64,000 nucleotides of DNA, from NCBI RefSeq assembly GCF_000966285.1, contig NZ_KQ031391.1, positions 3,073,208 through 3,137,207 of the forward strand, given 5' to 3'. A model generated the notes under the pieces. That model worked only from the letters and a program-made list of their open reading frames with translations. It did not search any database and was not told the DNA's origin. This stretch comes from Pseudofrankia sp. DC12. Its GTDB lineage: Bacteria > Actinomycetota > Actinomycetes > Frankiales > Frankiaceae. The translations under genes were made by a program, and so were the position numbers. This document shows positions 47,525-56,875 of the stretch, one piece after another; position 1 is the first letter of the stretch, and every line of letters starts with the position of its first letter.

Positions 47525-49216
47525 TCACCTTCTCCCTGGGCGCGGGGCTCCCGCGGAGAGCGCGGCCGGCCGACGTAGCGGCGGGCTTTCCGGGCCGGAG
47601 CTGCCCGGCTCGGGCAGGGTCTCGACGCCTGGAACGGAACCGCCACGGGAGGCGTAGCGGCGCTGCGCCGGGATCGGCGCCGGTTCCAGGTCCAGCGCCG
47701 GCCGGTCGTGGGCCATCCCGGCCAGCGCCCGCTCCAGCCGGGCCGGCAGCCTGCGCCCGTCCCCGCCGCCCAGCCGCATCAGCGGCGCGAGGCACATGCC
47801 GAGCGTCAGGTAGCAGGCGGCCGCGCCGAACGGCGACTCCAGGAACGGCTCGAACTGGGACGCCGTCACCATCAGTGCCATCAGCGCCAGGCCGACCGGG
47901 TTCCCGGTCCGCTTGTAGACCGTCCACAGCTGCCGGGCGATCGCGTAGAAGAGCAGCGCCATCAGCGCGACGCCGACGAAGCCGGTGTAGCCGATCGAGT
48001 AGAAGATGATGTTGTGGGGGCTGCGGACCGTAGTGTCGACGTTGCCCGGCGGCGCGAGCGTCTGCAGGTTGAACCCGTAGCCGTGGCCGAAGAAGAGGAA
48101 GGTCGGGTCGCTGGTGGCGCTGTGCCAGATGCCGTGCCACCACGCCTGGCGGAACTGGGCGGTGCCGTTCGCGCCCTCGACCCGGTCCGCGCTGGTGAAC
48201 TGGCTCGCGAGCTCCGGGTCCACCGAGCCGACGGCCCGGCCGATGACGTCGGTGGGCCGTACGGCGCCACCGCGGTCGGTCGGGCCGGGAATCTTGACGT
48301 TGATGATCGTGATGACCGTCGCGAAGACCAGGATGACGCCGAGACCGGCCGCCAGCCGCCGGTACTGCCTGGTCAGCACGCAGTAGATCACCAGCGAGAC
48401 GATCAGGGCCAGCCACTCGGCCCGGATCTGATGCCCGAACAGGACGGCCACGTTCAGCAGCACCAGCGGGATCAGCCACTTGCTGCGGCGGTGGTAGACG
48501 ACCAGCCCGAGGATGGCCATCGCCGCGTTCGTCAGGCCCAGGTCGAACAACGGCGCGCCGGGATTGCCCGGCACCGTGACCTGCAGCTTGTTGAGAAAGA
48601 CCGCGTAGGCGATGCCATAGGTCGCGTTGCCCCAGGCCAGCGCCCAGACCAGCTTGCTGAAGATCTTCGGGTCCCGGACGCCCATCCACATCCCGAAGGA
48701 GAGGAGAACCGGGTAGTAGTACAGCTGCAGCGACTTGAGCAGGGTGGTCGAGCTGCCGCCGTCGAACAGGCCGCGGATGGTCTCGGCGACGCCGTAGCAG
48801 AAGAACACCATCATCGCGACGGCGAGCAGGTGCAGCCGCCCCGCCCGGCCGGCCTGGCGCAGCAGGCCGGCGAGGTACGTCCGGGTGGGACTGAAGATCA
48901 CCATCGTGATGATGGTGATCTCGCTGATGTACAGGTTGATCGGGGCGATGCCCAGGTACGCGAACCCGCGCCCGCAGAGCACCATGCCGAAGGTGACGAA
49001 CAGGCCGTACATCGTCATCCGTCGCGCGGCCCGCTCGGCCGCGGGCATCCCCATCCGCCGGACCGCGGAGTTGACCGATCCGCGCATGGCGGCCGGCCGC
49101 GGCGCCCGCCGCCACCGCCGGCCCAGCCACATGCCGGGCCTGGTGCGCGGGCCGGACCCGGCCCGCGCACCCAGGCCGCCGGCGGGCAGCGACAGCCCGG
49201 CGGCTGGAGCCGTCAT
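47525..49216 (-). CDS. O-antigen ligase/polymerase-like membrane protein (Wzy)
   Basis: A 563-residue multi-pass membrane protein with about ten to twelve hydrophobic helices between residues 70 and 470 and a hydrophilic, Pro-rich 85-residue C-terminal tail. The long outer loop (about 290-380) with WWHGIWHSATSDPTFLFFGHGYGFNLQTL...SPHNIIFYSIGYTGFVGVALMALLFY is the pattern of O-antigen ligase/Wzy proteins (the H-N and G-x-G segments). It probably polymerises lipid-linked repeats at the outer membrane face. Its ATG overlaps the Wzz-kinase stop by 4 bases, supporting a joint role. Confidence 0.8.
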   Translation of the reverse strand: MTAPAAGLSLPAGGLGARAGSGPRTRPGMWLGRRWRRAPRPAAMRGSVNSAVRRMGMPAAERAARRMTMYGLFVTFGMVLCGRGFAYLGIAPINLYISEITIITMVIFSPTRTYLAGLLRQAGRAGRLHLLAVAMMVFFCYGVAETIRGLFDGGSSTTLLKSLQLYYYPVLLSFGMWMGVRDPKIFSKLVWALAWGNATYGIAYAVFLNKLQVTVPGNPGAPLFDLGLTNAAMAILGLVVYHRRSKWLIPLVLLNVAVLFGHQIRAEWLALIVSLVIYCVLTRQYRRLAAGLGVILVFATVITIINVKIPGPTDRGGAVRPTDVIGRAVGSVDPELASQFTSADRVEGANGTAQFRQAWWHGIWHSATSDPTFLFFGHGYGFNLQTLAPPGNVDTTVRSPHNIIFYSIGYTGFVGVALMALLFYAIARQLWTVYKRTGNPVGLALMALMVTASQFEPFLESPFGAAACYLTLGMCLAPLMRLGGGDGRRLPARLERALAGMAHDRPALDLEPAPIPAQRRYASRGGSVPGVETLPEPGSSGPESPPLRRPAALSAGAPRPGRR

Positions 49217-50790
49217 ACCCCGGATCCGACAGACGGCTTGTTGTACCGGTTGCCGCCCTGACCGCTGGATCCGCCGGATAGGCCAGCCTTCCTGGCGGCC
49301 GGCTGTGCGGCTCGCCGCTTCCCGGCACCAGTGCCGCCACGCCGCGGCGAGCGGGTGAAGAAGTAGCCGCGCACCGGCAGGCTCAGCAGACTGATCCGCT
49401 TCGCGAACTCCTCGGTGACCCGGATGTCCGCGCCGAACGGGATGATCGCGACGGCCGCGTCGGCCTGCTTGGCCAGCGCCGTGCCGGCCGCCCGCTCCAG
49501 CACCGCCGGGGCGTCGATGAGCACGAGGTCGAACCGGCGGCGGACCTCCTTGAGCACGTCGCCGATCGCCTCGGGGTCGAACGTGACCGGGCGCCCGTCG
49601 TCGGCAAGCCCGGGCGGCAGGATGAACAGCTTGCCGGGCACCTGCTCGACGAGGCGGATACCCTCCTCGGCGCTGATCGAACCGTGCAGCACGTCGGCCA
49701 GCCCGACCCGCTCGGACGGCACCCCGAGCAGCCAGGACAGGCCCTGGCCGTCGAAGTTGGCGTCAATGGCGAGGACCCGCTTGCCGGACCTCGCGGCGGT
49801 GACTGCGAGGTTGGCCACCGTCACGCTCTTCCCGTCCCCGGAGGTAGCCGAGATCACCGCGTACGTCTGGCCGGACTCCAGCGCGTCCGCGGCGAACCGA
49901 AAACCCTCGGCGGCTGCCGATCGCTCACCGTCGAAGGCGGGGAGGTCACTCGGCAGGCGATCCAGCGTGAAGTCGGGGATCTCGGCGAGGAACGGCCGCT
50001 CCAGCAGGAGCTCTGGCTCCAGGCGGTTCTCGATCCGAGGCCGCCGGTTGACGGTGAAGTACGCGAGGGCCGCGCCGACCAGCAGGCCGAGCACCACGCC
50101 GAGCAGACCGAAGCGGATGGCCGCGGACTTGGAGGCACTGCTCGGCACGGCCGCCGGTGAGCTGTCGACGATGCCGGTCAGGGTGACGGCGCTCTTGCCG
50201 GTCGCGGCCGACCACTGCGAGTACAGCTGGCTCAGTACGGCCTGCTGCGGAGAGCCGGCGGCACGAGCGGCCGGGTCGGTGTTGATCTGCGCGGTCACTG
50301 TGGCGATCGCCTTGCGGAGTCCGTCGATCTCGTTCTTATTGGCATCCGAGGCGATGGTCGTCACGACCGCCTTGTACGCGTCAACGAGCGCGTTCGCGCC
50401 GGCCTGAGCGATCTCCGGGCTGGAGTCTCGGTAGGAGACCGTGATCAGGTCACTGTTCTGGTCCAGCGAGACCGTCAGATGCTTGCTCAACTGACGACCG
50501 GTCAGGTGCGCACTCGGGAACTGCTTGTTTACCCCTGCCGCGGCCACGTCCGCCGTCTTCGGCATCTTCATGATCGATGCCTGGTTCGCCGCGTAGTGGG
50601 CGTCGGGGTTGCTGGCCGAAGGATCCTCCACCAGGATCGACGCCTTGGCCGTGGCAGCACCGGACGTCTTCACCCCGATGGCGATCCCGACCGCACCCAG
50701 CAGCACGACACACACCAGGACCAGTCCACGCCGGCGGCTCATCGCGCCGAAGACGGTCGGGGCGAACGGTGAGACCTCTAGTGCATCCAT
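49213..50790 (-). CDS. Wzz-type chain-length regulator fused to a BY-kinase-like ATPase
   Basis: A 525-residue membrane protein combining a Wzz-like part with a P-loop domain. Two membrane helices (about 23-40 and 228-247) bracket an extracytoplasmic coiled-coil-rich loop. The cytoplasmic domain has Walker A SATSGDGKS (Lys321), an A'-like motif VLAIDANFDG and Walker B FDLVLIDAPAV (Asp426). The A' motif has Asn where BY-kinases have the second Asp. The C-terminal tail has a single Tyr (NRYNKPS) instead of a Tyr cluster, so autokinase function may be reduced or lost. It should control polysaccharide length with the adjacent Wzy. ATG 50790. Confidence 0.85.
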   Translation of the reverse strand: MDALEVSPFAPTVFGAMSRRRGLVLVCVVLLGAVGIAIGVKTSGAATAKASILVEDPSASNPDAHYAANQASIMKMPKTADVAAAGVNKQFPSAHLTGRQLSKHLTVSLDQNSDLITVSYRDSSPEIAQAGANALVDAYKAVVTTIASDANKNEIDGLRKAIATVTAQINTDPAARAAGSPQQAVLSQLYSQWSAATGKSAVTLTGIVDSSPAAVPSSASKSAAIRFGLLGVVLGLLVGAALAYFTVNRRPRIENRLEPELLLERPFLAEIPDFTLDRLPSDLPAFDGERSAAAEGFRFAADALESGQTYAVISATSGDGKSVTVANLAVTAARSGKRVLAIDANFDGQGLSWLLGVPSERVGLADVLHGSISAEEGIRLVEQVPGKLFILPPGLADDGRPVTFDPEAIGDVLKEVRRRFDLVLIDAPAVLERAAGTALAKQADAAVAIIPFGADIRVTEEFAKRISLLSLPVRGYFFTRSPRRGGTGAGKRRAAQPAARKAGLSGGSSGQGGNRYNKPSVGSGV

Positions 50791-51212: not shown

Positions 51213-52487
51213 CTACCGGGCCGCCTTGACATAGATCTCGTCGAGAAGGTCCGGCAGCCGCTCGACGCTGAACCGCCGGTCGGGTTCGAGCGGGCCGGGG
51301 CAGTCACGCAGGGCGCGGGCCAGCGCGCCGACCACGTCGCCGTACGGGCGGACCCGGACACCCCGCTGCCCCATCCCGAACCGGCTGACCTCGCCGACCT
51401 GCATGGCCGGGCCGCCGATGTCCAGGCAGATCACCGGACGACCGAGCGCGAGCGCCTCGGCGACGATCCAGCCGGCGCTGTCGTGCATGGATGGGAACAG
51501 CAGTACGTCACTGCTCGCGAGCGCCGCGAGTACTTCCTCCCGCGGCCGCTGACCGTGCAGCGTCACCCGGTCGGTCACGCCGAGCCGCTCGCAGGCCGCG
51601 CGGATCTGCTCCTCGTCCGGCCCGGCTCCGTAGATGTCCAGTGTCCAGCCGTCCGCGTGCGCCCGCGCGATCGCCGCGACGGCGAGCCGGACGCCCTTCC
51701 ACGCCAGCAGCCGGCCGGCGAAGACAGCGCGCCGCTGCGGCTTGGCCCCGCCTGGTGCCTCGGGACGCCCGACCTCGACGGCGGTGGCCTCCGGGTGCGC
51801 GCCGGCGGGCGCGCGGTCGGGGCCCGGCCTGGTGCCGTGTCCCGGAGCCGCGGCGGGAACCGGAAGCTGGTCCAGGTGCAGGGCGATGTTCGGCTCGACC
51901 CGCGGGTGCGCCCGGCGGAACCGGCGGGCGACGTCCTCGTTCGCCGCGAGCATCACGCTCGCCCGCCGGGACAGCAGCTCACCGCAGGCGACCCGCCCGG
52001 CGGCGGTGATCACTCCACGCGCGACCTCGACGGCGAACTGCTTGTCACCGAGCTGTTCGCGGAACTGGGACGGCAGCGGCGCCGTCCCGCCAACCGGGCC
52101 CCAGACGAATGGGACGTCGGGCAGCACGACACCCGACGGCATCCAGTCCGCCGCGTACGTGATGTGGTGGGTGATGTCGAAGCCGATCTCCGCGTGCTTG
52201 GCGCGGACCGCCCGGCGCAGGAAGTACTGCCAGGCCGCGTAGCGCATCCGCTCGCCGCGGCCGAAGTCGCCCGGGTAGTTGGCCCACGCCGGCGCCGGGA
52301 CCTCGACGGCCGTCAGCCGCAGCTCCGGCTCGGCGCGCACCGCCGCCCGGATCGGCTCGATCCAGGAGGGGTCGGTGAAGACCCACACGTCGTGGCGCAG
52401 CGCCGCGGCACGGGTCCACTCCCAGCCGGCGCCCGGCTCGGAGCCACCCCCGGGACCGCAGGCAAATGCCCCGATCGCGACCTTCAC
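51213..52487 (-). CDS. GT4-family glycosyltransferase
   Basis: A 424-residue GT-B transferase. KVAIGAFACGPGGGSEPGAGWEWTRAAA is the N-terminal strand and glycine loop. HHITYAADWMPSG, PFVWGPVGGTAPLP, a GRLLAWKGVRLAVAAIARAH donor-domain start, IYGAGPDEEQI and LLFPSMHDSAGWIVAEALALGRPVICLDIGGP with the conserved Glu pair fit GT4. A Pro/Gly/Ala-rich insert of about 45 residues lies between the domains. GTG 52487 is chosen with GGGAGG about 10 nt upstream. The sugar transferred is unknown. It is followed on the same strand, further from the Wzz operon, by that operon's promoter gap. Confidence 0.82.
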   Translation of the reverse strand: MKVAIGAFACGPGGGSEPGAGWEWTRAAALRHDVWVFTDPSWIEPIRAAVRAEPELRLTAVEVPAPAWANYPGDFGRGERMRYAAWQYFLRRAVRAKHAEIGFDITHHITYAADWMPSGVVLPDVPFVWGPVGGTAPLPSQFREQLGDKQFAVEVARGVITAAGRVACGELLSRRASVMLAANEDVARRFRRAHPRVEPNIALHLDQLPVPAAAPGHGTRPGPDRAPAGAHPEATAVEVGRPEAPGGAKPQRRAVFAGRLLAWKGVRLAVAAIARAHADGWTLDIYGAGPDEEQIRAACERLGVTDRVTLHGQRPREEVLAALASSDVLLFPSMHDSAGWIVAEALALGRPVICLDIGGPAMQVGEVSRFGMGQRGVRVRPYGDVVGALARALRDCPGPLEPDRRFSVERLPDLLDEIYVKAAR

Positions 52488-52607
52488 CTTCGGCCATCCT
52501 CCCTTGAGCCGACGCCACCGGCGCCGGTTCCCCTCCGCGCGGGTGCGGGCAGCCATCCACCATCCCGCCGTGCTGGCGGCTCCGGGAGGCGGCCGCCCGG
52601 TGACGAC

Positions 52608-53585
52608 CTACAGCCGGTGCTCGGCGCTCGACTGCTTGTTGCCGATGCCGAAGTAGTTGTGCGGGCCGGGCACCAGCAGCTTGCGGAACTTGTCCGGCTG
52701 GACCGCGAGCACGCCGACCGCGGCGTAGCACTGCGCCCGCTCGACCGGCGGGAAGGAGTGCCGGTCGATCGCGTCGATGTACCCGCGGATCATGTTGGAG
52801 ACCGGGGGCAGCACGCTCTTCTTCGCGTCCGGGTTGCTCCACTTGGCCTTCTGCCAGACGCTCATGTTGTTCGAAGCCCCCGAGTGCGAGCGCCGCTGCC
52901 ACAGCGGCTCCTCGACCACCCGCCAGGTCCCCAGCAACGCCATCTCGGCGAGGATCACCCGGTCGGTGCCGTAGAACTTCTGCTGCATCGCGGTGCTCAG
53001 CAACACCTCGCGGCGCATCAGCCCGAAGATCTCGAAGCACCACTTCGTGTGCAGCAGCACATCGCGGAACCGGACGTGCGGGTAGGGGGAGCGCAGCTGC
53101 CGGGTGGCGATGTTCGGGTCCGGGCCGTCGACGTAGGTGCCCTTGTCGTCGACGAAGCCCACCCCGTCGCCGGCCGGATGCAGCGGCTTGCCGTCCTCGT
53201 CGATGTACGAGGCGAAGGAGTGACACAGGACCGCGTCGTCGTCCCTGCTCAACAGGCCGTACGTCTTTTCCAGGTACTCCGGCGACAGGGTGTCGTCGTC
53301 GGCGGCCCACCGGTAGTAGGGAGCCCGACTGAGCCGGACGACCTCGTTGAAGTTCGCGTTCGCGCCGATGTTCTCCTCCTGGCGCACGTAGCGAACCCGC
53401 GAGTCCTCCTTCGCGTACCCGCGGCAGAGGTCCTCGGTGCCATCGGTGGAGGCGTTGTCCGAGATCACCAGCTCGAAGTCGCCGAAGGTCTGCGCGAGGT
53501 GCGACTCGATGGCCGAGCCGAGGTAGTCAGCGCCGTTGTACACCGGAATCCCGATGCTGACCTCAGGTACCCGGGATTCCTTCAT
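52608..53585 (-). CDS. GT2-family glycosyltransferase
   Basis: A 325-residue inverting GT-A transferase. EVSIGIPVYNGADYLGSAIESHLAQTFGDFELVISDNASTDGTEDL is the typical N-terminal domain. RWAADDDTLSPEYLE supplies the DxD-type metal and nucleotide site. WCFEIFGLMRREVLLSTAMQQKFYGTDRVILAEMALLG is the acceptor side. No membrane helices are predicted. GGAG 8 nt upstream supports ATG 53585. A 15-bp tandem repeat lies just upstream. It probably extends the repeat unit, substrate unknown. Confidence 0.87.
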   Translation of the reverse strand: MKESRVPEVSIGIPVYNGADYLGSAIESHLAQTFGDFELVISDNASTDGTEDLCRGYAKEDSRVRYVRQEENIGANANFNEVVRLSRAPYYRWAADDDTLSPEYLEKTYGLLSRDDDAVLCHSFASYIDEDGKPLHPAGDGVGFVDDKGTYVDGPDPNIATRQLRSPYPHVRFRDVLLHTKWCFEIFGLMRREVLLSTAMQQKFYGTDRVILAEMALLGTWRVVEEPLWQRRSHSGASNNMSVWQKAKWSNPDAKKSVLPPVSNMIRGYIDAIDRHSFPPVERAQCYAAVGVLAVQPDKFRKLLVPGPHNYFGIGNKQSSAEHRL

Positions 53586-53868: not shown

Positions 53869-56652
53869 TCAGCGGCCTCGGTCGAACACGTCAGGCCTGC
53901 GCAGGCCGGACCCACCGCTGGAATGCCGGCCCCGCCCGCGCCGCGCCGCCGGCGTGGGCTGCTCCGGCTCTGGCTCCGGCCGCGGCGCGGGCGCCGGCGG
54001 ACGCGGGTCCGCCTGGGAGGCCGCTGGCGCGGGCCTCGGCTGACGAGGCGTCGGCGGTGCCGGCATGGGTGCGGGAGGCCTCGTCGCCCGGCGGGCAGGA
54101 ACCTCGGCCGGACCGGGCCCGGCGGCGGGCCCCCGGCCTGGTACCGGCCCCGGCGCGACGGGACGCGACGGGACGGGCATCGCGGGACGCCCCGGTCCAG
54201 CAGCCGGGCGGCCCGGCGACACCGGACCAACCGGTCCCGGCACCGCCGGAGGGGCCGGGACCGCCAGGCTCGCGGTCGCGGCGGGCTGCGCGGGACGCCG
54301 GAACTCACGGACGATGACCGCCCCGTTGACGACGTACATCGCCAGGAGGGTCGCCCCGGCACCCCAGATCAGGGCGAACGAGCCGAGGGCCTTGGCGGTC
54401 GCCGCGACGGCGATGCCGGACACGACGACGGCCACCAGGCTCGCGACCGACGCCGCCCGCGCGCGGCCCGCGGCGTTCGCGATTGTGATCAGTACCAGGA
54501 CGCTGTAGCCGGCACCCTCGGTGACGATCGTCCAGGGCAGCAAGCCGTGTACCCGATAGGCGGGCTTCTGGAACCTGGGAAGCGGGTTGAACGGCCATTC
54601 AAAGCCCACCAGCAACGCCCACCCCAGGATGGCGACCGCGACCAGGCCCCAGAAAAGCAGACAGATCTTGATCAGCCTGCGGACGGACCGGTTGTGCGCC
54701 GCTTCCATGATCTCCGGGTTGAGCACGGCAAGCAGCCCGATGACCAGCACGGTGACCGGCTGGGCCAGGACCCGGGCCCCCTCGCCGCTACCGACGTCCG
54801 CCTGGCCGGACAGCGCCGTCAGGAGCGCGAAGTTGAGGAACGGGCCGCTGGCCGACAGCACGTTGCCCACCACGATCCAGCCGCCCATGGAGACGAACAG
54901 GGTTCGCAGCTTCAACAGCATCGGCGCCCGGTGGCCGGGCTTGGCCTTCCACAGCCCGAACGCCCCGGAGACGAAGTTCGCGACCGCGAGCGCGCCGAAC
55001 GGCACCCAGGCCGGCGGCACGTGCGCGACCTTGGCCGTCACCAGTCCGAGCGTGACGGCCAGCACCTGTACAAAGGAGGTCGCGGCCGCGGTCCAGGACA
55101 TTCCGGCCTGGTGCAGCATCCGCCGGATGTGGTCCTGCATCGGCGAGGCCACCGCGACCAGGGCGGCCGTCACGGCGAACCCGACCCGGGAATCGGCCGA
55201 CTGCCCGTGCGACGGAATGATCAGGACCAGTGGCACCAGCAGCGCCGCCAGGACGGCGGGCGCCATGCCCAGCTGCAGCGACTGTGGCAGCAGCTGCACC
55301 CGCCTGTGCCGGGCCGCGACACCCGCCGACGTGTACTCGACCGGCGAGAAGACGATGCCCGTCGGGATGACCGACACGGCGATGAAGGCCGTGTAGAAGA
55401 GCCCGTACGTGCCCAGCATCGTGGGTAGGAAATACTGCGCGAACACGCCCATCATGAAGCTGCCCAGCGACGACAGGCTGGAGTCGACGAGGCCGGCCGG
55501 CACCCGGCGTAGCAGCGACGGCGCCTGCGGCTCCTCGGGGGGCGGCGTCGGTGCGGCCCCCGTCAGCTCCTCACGAAGCGGGATCGGCACCGGGCCGGTC
55601 TGGAACAGCAGCGAGCCCGGGGGCATCGCCGAGCGCGACATATGCATGGTCGTCTCGGCCACCAGCGGGTCGGCGAGCAGGGCGATGCGCCCTTGCCTGC
55701 CGCCTGGGAGGTCCCGGCGGGAGATCCGCATCGTCGTCTCGGCCGGGTTCGGCTCCGCCAGGGCACGGTGACCGACAGGCCTGGTGGCCTGAGTCGCGCC
55801 TCGGTCAACCGCTGGGCGGTCGGCTGCCGCCCGGTCGGCCGGTGCTCGGCCGGCCGGAGGCGTGGCAGGCCGTCCGTCGGACGCGGCTCCCGTGATCTTG
55901 CGACGGTCGAGCAGCTCCGTGCTGTCCGGCGGCGGTGCCTTCGGCACGCCGACGCCGCGGCTCGTGACAGCCGCAGGGTCATCGACGGTGTCCCGCCGCG
56001 TCACCCTCGACCGGTCGACCCTGGCCGTCCGTTCCCCAGCCGGCCCGGCGGCGTCGGAGGCGGGCCCGGCCACGCCGCGCCCAGGAGCCGCCGGATCCGC
56101 CGTGCCCCGGCGTTCCAGCCGCGCACGGTCCACCTTGGTCGTCCGCTCCCCGGCCGGCGAGGCGCGGTCCGGCGGGGCCGGATCGACGGTGTCACGCCGC
56201 TCGGTCCTGGGCCGCTCGACCCGGGTCGTGCGCTCCCCCGGGTCCTCCGCGCGCTGGGACCCACGTGACGGAGTGGGTGCATAGACCGACGGTGGGGACG
56301 AGGCGGGTGGCTCGGCTGGGCCGCGGCCTGGGCGTGGCACCGTCGTCGTCTCGTCGACCGCCACGCGGACCGCCGCGCGCGAGTAGACCGAGGGAGGAGA
56401 CGGCGGAAGGACCCGCCCGGGCGGCAGCTTGATCGTCTGACTGTCGTCGCCGGCCCCGCCGGAACCTTCGGCACGCGTCTCGCCACGTCCTGGGTCCGTC
56501 CGCCGACGCGGAGGAACACCATGCGACGCTTCCGGCTCGACCGGTGACGAGGAGTGTTCGCGGTCGCCCGGCGTCTCGCTGCGCCCCCTGGCGGCCTCAT
56601 CGGCCTCGCCCGTTTCCGGACCCGCCTCGGGGCCACTCCCAGCGTCGCTCAT
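53869..56652 (-). CDS. Wzx-like polysaccharide flippase with long disordered tails
   Basis: A 927-residue MOP-superfamily (MATE/Wzx-like) membrane protein. Residues about 390-765 hold some twelve hydrophobic helices (SSLSSLGSFMMGVFAQYFLPTMLGTYGLFYTAF onward, with GFAVTAALVAVASPMQDHIRRMLHQAGMS). The first 385 residues are disordered and contain seven copies of a Thr-rich short motif, T-x-x-[VILM], most preceded by Glu and followed by Arg. The C-terminal 150 residues are Pro/Ala/Arg-rich. It probably flips lipid-linked repeat units. The tail may be a Ser/Thr-kinase substrate and FHA-binding platform, which is inference. ATG 56652 is chosen; GTG 56661 is three codons upstream. No kinase or FHA gene is in the window. 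Confidence 0.75.
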   Translation of the reverse strand: MSDAGSGPEAGPETGEADEAARGRSETPGDREHSSSPVEPEASHGVPPRRRTDPGRGETRAEGSGGAGDDSQTIKLPPGRVLPPSPPSVYSRAAVRVAVDETTTVPRPGRGPAEPPASSPPSVYAPTPSRGSQRAEDPGERTTRVERPRTERRDTVDPAPPDRASPAGERTTKVDRARLERRGTADPAAPGRGVAGPASDAAGPAGERTARVDRSRVTRRDTVDDPAAVTSRGVGVPKAPPPDSTELLDRRKITGAASDGRPATPPAGRAPADRAAADRPAVDRGATQATRPVGHRALAEPNPAETTMRISRRDLPGGRQGRIALLADPLVAETTMHMSRSAMPPGSLLFQTGPVPIPLREELTGAAPTPPPEEPQAPSLLRRVPAGLVDSSLSSLGSFMMGVFAQYFLPTMLGTYGLFYTAFIAVSVIPTGIVFSPVEYTSAGVAARHRRVQLLPQSLQLGMAPAVLAALLVPLVLIIPSHGQSADSRVGFAVTAALVAVASPMQDHIRRMLHQAGMSWTAAATSFVQVLAVTLGLVTAKVAHVPPAWVPFGALAVANFVSGAFGLWKAKPGHRAPMLLKLRTLFVSMGGWIVVGNVLSASGPFLNFALLTALSGQADVGSGEGARVLAQPVTVLVIGLLAVLNPEIMEAAHNRSVRRLIKICLLFWGLVAVAILGWALLVGFEWPFNPLPRFQKPAYRVHGLLPWTIVTEGAGYSVLVLITIANAAGRARAASVASLVAVVVSGIAVAATAKALGSFALIWGAGATLLAMYVVNGAVIVREFRRPAQPAATASLAVPAPPAVPGPVGPVSPGRPAAGPGRPAMPVPSRPVAPGPVPGRGPAAGPGPAEVPARRATRPPAPMPAPPTPRQPRPAPAASQADPRPPAPAPRPEPEPEQPTPAARRGRGRHSSGGSGLRRPDVFDRGR

Positions 56653-56875
56653 CACCCTCACTCACCGAGTCGTCAGCGCATTATCCCAGTCCGCCGTTAC
56701 GGAAAAGTTGACGTCGTCCGATAGCCGCGTCCCGACGATACGGAGAGCGACAGGGGTGGGGAATTCCCCACCCCTCACGGTGGTACTCCCACGCGCGGCC
56801 GGTTCCGCTGGCCCCACCCTGGATCCGCCGGTCCACTCCAGTGACCACGACCTCGCGTTCCGGGACCGTCGAGGC

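Follow-up and report, generated by a model that had tools for sequence, protein, structure and literature searches.

The Flippase Gene and Its Neighborhood

The window, i.e., the whole stretch of 64,000 nucleotides analyzed here, carries a flippase gene on its minus strand. The gene, the parts of its product and the neighboring genes were assigned as follows:

53869–56661, minus strand: flippase gene, 930 aa (GTG start, ATG at 56652 possible; GC3 0.87)
55516–56661, minus strand: N-terminal tail, residues 1–382, low in hydrophobicity and rich in P/A/R/G/T/S, predicted from its composition to be disordered
54289–55515, minus strand: membrane core of MOP fold, residues 383–791 (AlphaFold2 model and PDB matches)
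53872–54288, minus strand: Pro/Ala-rich, fast-evolving C-terminal tail (37.5% amino-acid change)
52608–53585, minus strand: glycosyltransferase family 2 (PF00535)
51213–52556, minus strand: glycosyltransferase group 1 (PF13692)
49213–50790, minus strand: chain-length/ATPase protein, BY-kinase-like (AAA_31 and CbiA matches; putative name)
47525–49216, minus strand: Wzy/O-antigen-ligase-like polymerase (PF04932, Wzy_C)

The N-terminal tail, described as 385 residues long in an earlier note on this DNA, comprises about 382 residues, and the core starts at residue 383. The C-terminal tail (53872–54288) is a fast-changing Pro/Ala/Arg repeat with a conserved GGSGLRRPDVFDR at its end.

The core was modelled with AlphaFold2. 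From four sequences, a pLDDT of only 47.5 was obtained, while a 23-sequence alignment that included homologues from the second flippase family described below (hhalign probability of 90%, E 1.6e-6) gave a pLDDT of 84.1 and a pTM of 0.82. The PDB matches to the latter model were WzxE (9g9n, inward-facing; TMq 0.72), a MATE protein (3vvn; 0.75) and MurJ (6nc9; 0.68). Judged by the model, the core is a MOP fold with at least 12 transmembrane helices, a fold that by itself cannot tell Wzx from MATE. The core had no match to a curated flippase family, neither in Pfam, even at E 10, nor in NCBIfam; the sole Pfam match at E 10 was a chance match in one of the four members of the core family. Neither a Pkinase match nor a pseudokinase domain of the MviN type was found in the protein, and searches of Pfam and NCBIfam gave no FHA-domain match. 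Since the neighboring genes encode glycosyltransferases, a BY-kinase-like ATPase and a Wzy_C protein, Wzx is favored over MATE. The protein is probably a MOP flippase of the Wzx type that belongs to an exopolysaccharide cluster, with predicted transport of lipid-linked sugars. In MOP transporters of this size, the N- and C-terminus are both cytosolic; therefore, the N-terminal tail of the window flippase, by analogy, probably faces the cytosol.

Threonine Motifs in the N-Terminal Tail

The seven T-x-x-[VILM] motifs claimed earlier for the tail were all found, i.e., TIKL (T76), TTTV (T105), TTRV (T145), TTKV (T174), TARV (T212), TMRI (T310) and TMHM (T338). They span about 55639–56436 on the minus strand, in agreement with the earlier coordinates within one codon. 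An eighth motif in the same context, DSTELLDR (T248), had been missed, and two further T-x-x-V occur in the tail without acid/Arg context (T293 and T355). The earlier description of an acidic residue before and an Arg after most motifs was borne out, with the acid 1–3 residues ahead of the Thr in eight of eight motifs and the Arg exactly at +5 in seven. QTIKL (T76) is the looser of the eight, the other seven having the acid 1–2 residues before the Thr together with Arg at +5. The consensus is [DE]-x-T-x-x-[VILM]-x-R. The motifs and the repeats that carry them are:

56425–56436, minus strand: motif 1, QTIKL (T76); both orthologues retain the Thr and the +3 Leu
56338–56349, minus strand: motif 2, TTTV in DETTTVPR (T105); +3 Val lost in both orthologues
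56167–56238, minus strand: repeat A1 with motif 3, ERTTRVER (T145)
56080–56151, minus strand: repeat A2 with motif 4, ERTTKVDR (T174)
55966–56037, minus strand: repeat A3 with motif 5, ERTARVDR (T212)
55909–55920, minus strand: motif 6, TELL in DSTELLDR (T248)
55693–55746, minus strand: repeat B1 with motif 7, ETTMRISR (T310); aligned with EATVRIKR of L004, a more distant relative
55609–55662, minus strand: repeat B2 with motif 8, ETTMHMSR (T338)

The diverged 24-residue repeats of family A carry three motifs (DNA 65–69% identical), and the repeats of family B carry two (DNA 61% identical). Independence of all eight motifs was rejected, since five of them lie in these two repeat families.

Compared with shuffled versions of the tail, the pattern T..[VILM] was found 10 times versus 4.1 (p 0.004). 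The excess was larger with the acid included: [DE].T..[VILM] occurred seven times versus 0.57, and none of 5000 shuffles reached this count. For [DE].{0,1}T..[VILM].R, also present seven times, the shuffles gave 0.14 on average and a maximum of 4 in 20,000; the search patterns were refined after the window tail was known, and the independent tests are the tails of other proteins. Among 954 genes, i.e., those called in the window plus a 17% sample of its own genome, the last pattern was absent from 888, present once in 63, twice in two and seven times in one, the window protein; the genes of the genome sample were called by a GC3 heuristic, and some are probably in wrong frames. The sample consisted of 60 stretches of 20 kb, mostly evenly spaced, with a few placed over FHA matches. 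The tail is also rich in Arg (52 of 380 residues).

Two further features of the tail were observed. Each A repeat (55966–56238) contains a second conserved Thr, RR[DG]T[VA]D[PD], located 13 residues after the first and without a hydrophobic residue at +3. SPPSVY is present twice (56281–56400; residues 88–93 and 122–127); PPSVY is conserved at both places in both orthologues and may be a separate binding motif.

Conservation of the Motifs in Orthologues

The core family of the window flippase was found in four of 58 genomes of relatives and in four of 393 of the class, the own genome being included in both counts, and all four genomes belong to one genus. A scan of genome contigs returned a single locus, L005 (Frankia sp. 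AgB1.9), which includes orthologue L002 letter for letter and was not counted as a third orthologue. When the repeat region was searched against 35 genomes of the family, the two orthologues matched strongly, and the best of the other matches had an E value of 5e-4. In the more distant relative L004, with a core 53% identical, the tail is interrupted by a contig end; PEATVRIKRP and QEDTERITRR are present in it.

To assess selection, the window tail was set against those of L002 and L003, two distinct same-genus orthologues; these are alike, so that the two comparisons are not independent. In windows from −2 to +5 around the eight motifs, differences were seen in 8 of 128 comparisons of residues (6%), versus 164 of 636 (26%) in the tail outside these windows and 85 of 817 (10%) in the membrane core. 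Synonymous change was not lower in the motifs, with 26.6% in the motif windows, 18.2% in the rest of the tail and 17.3% in the core. When the motif mask was shifted circularly, none of the 381 shifted masks was as conserved as the real one. The motif Thr was kept in eight of eight motifs and the +3 hydrophobic residue in seven of eight, T105 being the exception, with its Val lost in both orthologues. Of the 24 non-motif Thr of the tail, 19 were also conserved in the two orthologues. This comparison argues for purifying selection on the motifs, strongly for the motif windows as a whole and modestly for the Thr alone. Thus, within one genus, the T-x-x-V spacing is conserved while its surroundings drift, a contrast that the earlier note had singled out for checking.

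Tails of a Second Flippase Family

The own genome encodes a further polytopic flippase of a second family (L030:17402–19534, minus strand) with PEDTQLLRRDG and ADGTQLLRRPQ in its N-terminal tail. Of the 1197 low-hydrophobicity segments of the genome sample, this one ranked in the top five. The second flippase family is far more widespread than that of the window flippase: of 35 genomes of the bacterial family, probably Frankiaceae, 31 have a match to its core. Fifty tails were collected, 34 from loci within the family (30 from 58 rows plus four added) and 16 from 37 outside rows. The statistics used 33 of these, with the 16 outside-family tails and one of under 50 aa omitted, and 27 were non-redundant.

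In the 27 non-redundant tails, T..[VILM] occurred 112 times versus 50.9 in shuffles (2.2-fold), and none of 500 shuffles was as high. The controls were close to the shuffled values, with 61 versus 51.5 for the reversed order and 59 versus 56.8 for S..[VILM]. Hydrophobic residues were most strongly enriched at +3 (124 versus 57.1). Acid was enriched at −2 (107 versus 67.8; 1.58-fold) and depleted at −1 and −3, Gln was enriched at +1 (49 versus 21.1), and R/K at +5 (100 versus 75.4; 1.33-fold). When Ser replaced Thr in the full context, 22 occurrences versus 7.5 were counted, i.e., above the shuffles although plain S..[VILM] was not; this excess perhaps derives from S-T-Q-V-V sites. At least one acid-Thr-x-x-hydrophobic site was present in 30 of the 33 tails.

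In addition to TQ[LIV][LIV]xR, an island that looks helical and is conserved, T-x-TIDLSALRRRLE or TTELAALRRRLG, occurs in many of these tails. Some islands resemble amphipathic helices (TIDLSALRRRL), and extra hydrophobic enrichment was seen at −5 and +6.

The family also includes short-tailed paralogues, with 13 rows having open frames of only 463–550 aa; in one of these, L179, the tail is 59 residues long and lacks an acidic site. Judged by eye, none of 16 outside-family homologues (of 37 listed) has a convincing tail, and several outside rows beyond those 16 have long open frames. The motif tails of the second family look lineage-restricted.

Tails of MurJ and Control Tails

For MurJ of the family, 30 of 35 rows led to loci, of which 21 were used (eight not parsed, one with masked letters) and 16 were non-redundant. 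Wherever tails lay in long open frames, they were trimmed to the last 300–330 residues or to a recognized start. In the 16 MurJ tails, T..[VILM] was found 39 times versus 13.6 in shuffles (2.7-fold), with controls of 12 versus 13.7 (reversed) and 10 versus 12.6 (Ser). Again, +3 was the strongest position for hydrophobic residues (40 versus 14.7). Islands such as GEQTRRLPSAP, DDRTARLPPP and ADQTMVVPR were present, and two of the 16 tails had no site. In the MurJ of the own genome (L072), the frame stops directly after the membrane core, leaving no space for a pseudokinase domain. Its N-terminal tail of about 400 residues contains PTRRLPA, PTSRLPGPP and PTTPVSR as well as, near the core, EETVAQPR, which is without a hydrophobic residue at +3.

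Elsewhere in the class, 27 MurJ loci were inspected. Three of one genus (L204–L206, f18/g24) have an N-terminal tail of about 200 residues with the conserved stretch LPYGDDPxTTQ[YF]VGVD, and L227 has a tail of about 110 residues with STTDL. In the remaining loci of those 27 outside the family, the tail looked short or the upstream region non-coding, as judged by eye.

In 81 other disordered membrane-protein tails of the own-genome sample, 148 hydrophobic residues versus 151.8 were counted at +3 (0.98), and the three flippase tails together, window protein included, gave a ratio of 2.48. The possibility that any disordered tail of this genome shows the pattern was rejected on the basis of the 81 tails. 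Among 30 multi-transmembrane tails, acid-T..hydrophobic-basic occurred in forward and reversed order, respectively, 8 and 0 times in the window protein, 3 and 0 times in the second flippase and 5 and 5 times in the other 28. Tails within one family share ancestry, so the shuffles overstate significance, and the counting units are the three families. The T/+3 pattern appears to be common to these three distantly related flippase families of one bacterial family and, by the plain test, specific to Thr and not Ser.

Kinases, FHA Domains and Known Systems

The own genome has 12 FHA matches; for kinases, 53 of 58 candidates were scored, giving at least 53 matches. One gene run consists of FhaA_N plus FHA, FHA, PP2C, a RodA-type protein, a PBP and two kinases, the last with PASTA domains, and is a cluster of the FhaA/FhaB/PstP/RodA/PbpA/PknA/PknB type. 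The motifs had been said to look like kinase and FHA sites. The likeness held for the hydrophobic residue at +3 and for the flanking acid and Arg, and it did not extend to their exact positions, acid at −2 and Arg at +5, or to T105, with its +3 Val lost in the orthologues. According to PMC7164672, PknA-dependent pThr sites of M. tuberculosis prefer Leu/Val at +3, followed by Lys/Arg at +4, and acidic residues at −1 and from −3 to −6; compared with this context, the window motifs agree at +3, and the acid at −2 and the Arg at +5 are shifted by one place. Passages of PMC5549992 describe pT-x-x-V and pT-x-x-M as pT+3 contexts of the FHA type, and part of PMC6180346 reports binding of the FhaA FHA domain to CwlM pT382 in NDRPTGTFTFAELLA, with Phe385 at +3. 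The absence of a plain Ser signal fits, because FHA domains are highly pThr-specific (excerpt of PMC3146460). What is expected of an FHA ligand was found in the tails, namely an accessible region in which Thr, but not Ser, goes with selection at +3, the full-context Ser pattern being the exception.

Among the closest known systems is mycobacterial MurJ/MviN (Rv3910), like the window protein a MOP flippase with an extension. According to portions of PMC5845002, PMC6180346 and PMC11898655, the MviN extension lies in the cytosol, is phosphorylated and binds FhaA (Rv0020c) through the latter's FHA domain. There, the extension is described as a 334-residue intracellular domain composed of a linker and a pseudokinase, whereas the window protein has a long N-terminal tail with repeated linear motifs; in addition, MurJ/MviN is a lipid II flippase, and the window protein is a flippase of a polysaccharide cluster. 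The parallel would be close in logic and different in build. Passages of PMC6180346 also report that the MviN pseudokinase and FhaA are dispensable for growth and that, in one study, PknB depletion increased, and did not decrease, MurJ phosphorylation, so that a kinase for mycobacterial MurJ, too, can be named only tentatively.

The likeness to GarA/OdhI noted earlier stood in part. The N-terminal ETT motif of these proteins resembles the window motifs in its acidic residue, adjacent Thr and hydrophobic +3; GarA and OdhI carry an FHA domain, whereas the window protein has none, and about eight motifs. The GarA motif, ETTxV, combines the acid, a Thr pair and the hydrophobic +3, and GarA and OdhI are soluble FHA proteins. 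Thr14/Thr15 of OdhI are phosphorylated in vivo, and several kinases contribute (from a section of PMC2784874). Another parallel is Streptomyces CslA, a membrane-bound polysaccharide enzyme with a phosphorylated Thr close to its N-terminus, and parts of PMC13432765 indicate that T17 phosphorylation matters for glucan output; CslA has one site and is a synthase, not a flippase, and FHA is absent from the main text of that paper. In the open-access literature, no publication on Frankia phosphoproteomics was found, nor, among the matches listed, anything on flippase tails (Wzx/MurJ) with FHA-type motifs, and no flippase is mentioned in passages from two phosphoproteome studies of Streptomyces.

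A Putative Phosphothreonine Code on Flippase Tails

On sequence evidence, the N-terminal tail of the window flippase may be a multi-site substrate of Hanks-type kinases, with pThr motifs that would then be read by an FHA-domain protein, a reading that we consider the likeliest, at about even odds. The steps that we infer, from the cytosolic side of the tail through phosphorylation and FHA reading to an effect on flipping, would run as follows. One or more kinases, most likely of the PknA/PknB class, would phosphorylate about eight Thr of the tail, and an FHA-domain protein, with FhaA as the leading candidate, would bind the pThr-x-x-hydrophobic motifs. The multiple sites could provide higher avidity or a graded response, and the flippase might be recruited or held back in step with the peptidoglycan machinery. 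Confidence is limited because the acid and basic positions are off the published kinase context and short-tailed members are numerous.

Kinase sites may also serve without an FHA reader, the phosphates altering tail charge or membrane contact and so tuning the flippase. Kinases themselves prefer a +3 hydrophobic residue with flanking charges (as stated in part of PMC7164672), and the tail is rich in Arg (52/380), but every short motif is conserved, beyond net charge, which suggests a reader and makes this alternative rather unlikely. The motifs could instead be phosphorylation-independent docking sites for an envelope protein such as a polarity scaffold, the BY-kinase-like protein or the polymerase. 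The conserved islands within fast-drifting tails, the adjoining genes for the Wzy-like polymerase and the BY-kinase-like ATPase, and the inexact match of the acid/Arg positions to the published kinase context are consistent with docking; however, the plain test shows selection for Thr and not for Ser, as would best suit pThr readers, and the same T/+3 rule recurs in differing sequence contexts. We consider docking unlikely.

Helix capping or local folding, with Thr as N-cap and a hydrophobic residue at +3, would involve no signalling at all. It draws on the helical-looking islands TTELAALRRRL and TIDLSALRRRL and on the hydrophobic residues that, in the second family, are additionally enriched at −5 and +6. 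It is very improbable, in that Pro directly follows the hydrophobic residue at many sites (TRRLPSAP, TARLPPP, TIKLPPG, TTTVPRP), which is ill-suited to a helix, and in that Ser, a good helix N-cap too, is not enriched. That a repetitive GC-rich tail of low complexity gave rise to the motifs by expanding neutrally is hardly credible: two repeat families do hold five of the eight, but the repeats are old (DNA 61–69%), the motifs have changed far less than their surroundings, and no mask shift (0/381) was equally conserved.

Kinase-FHA control has already been reported for the mycobacterial lipid II flippase. Extending the kinase-FHA reading beyond the window protein, we tentatively suggest, while leaning against it, that one pThr code, [DE]-x-T-x-x-hydrophobic-x-R, is carried on the N-terminal tails of at least three flippase families and that a single kinase-FHA hub might coordinate the export of lipid II and exopolysaccharide. 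If so, repeated linear pThr motifs would be a portable device that links several flippases for export with a single signalling hub, and the motif tails would yield short, directly testable peptides.
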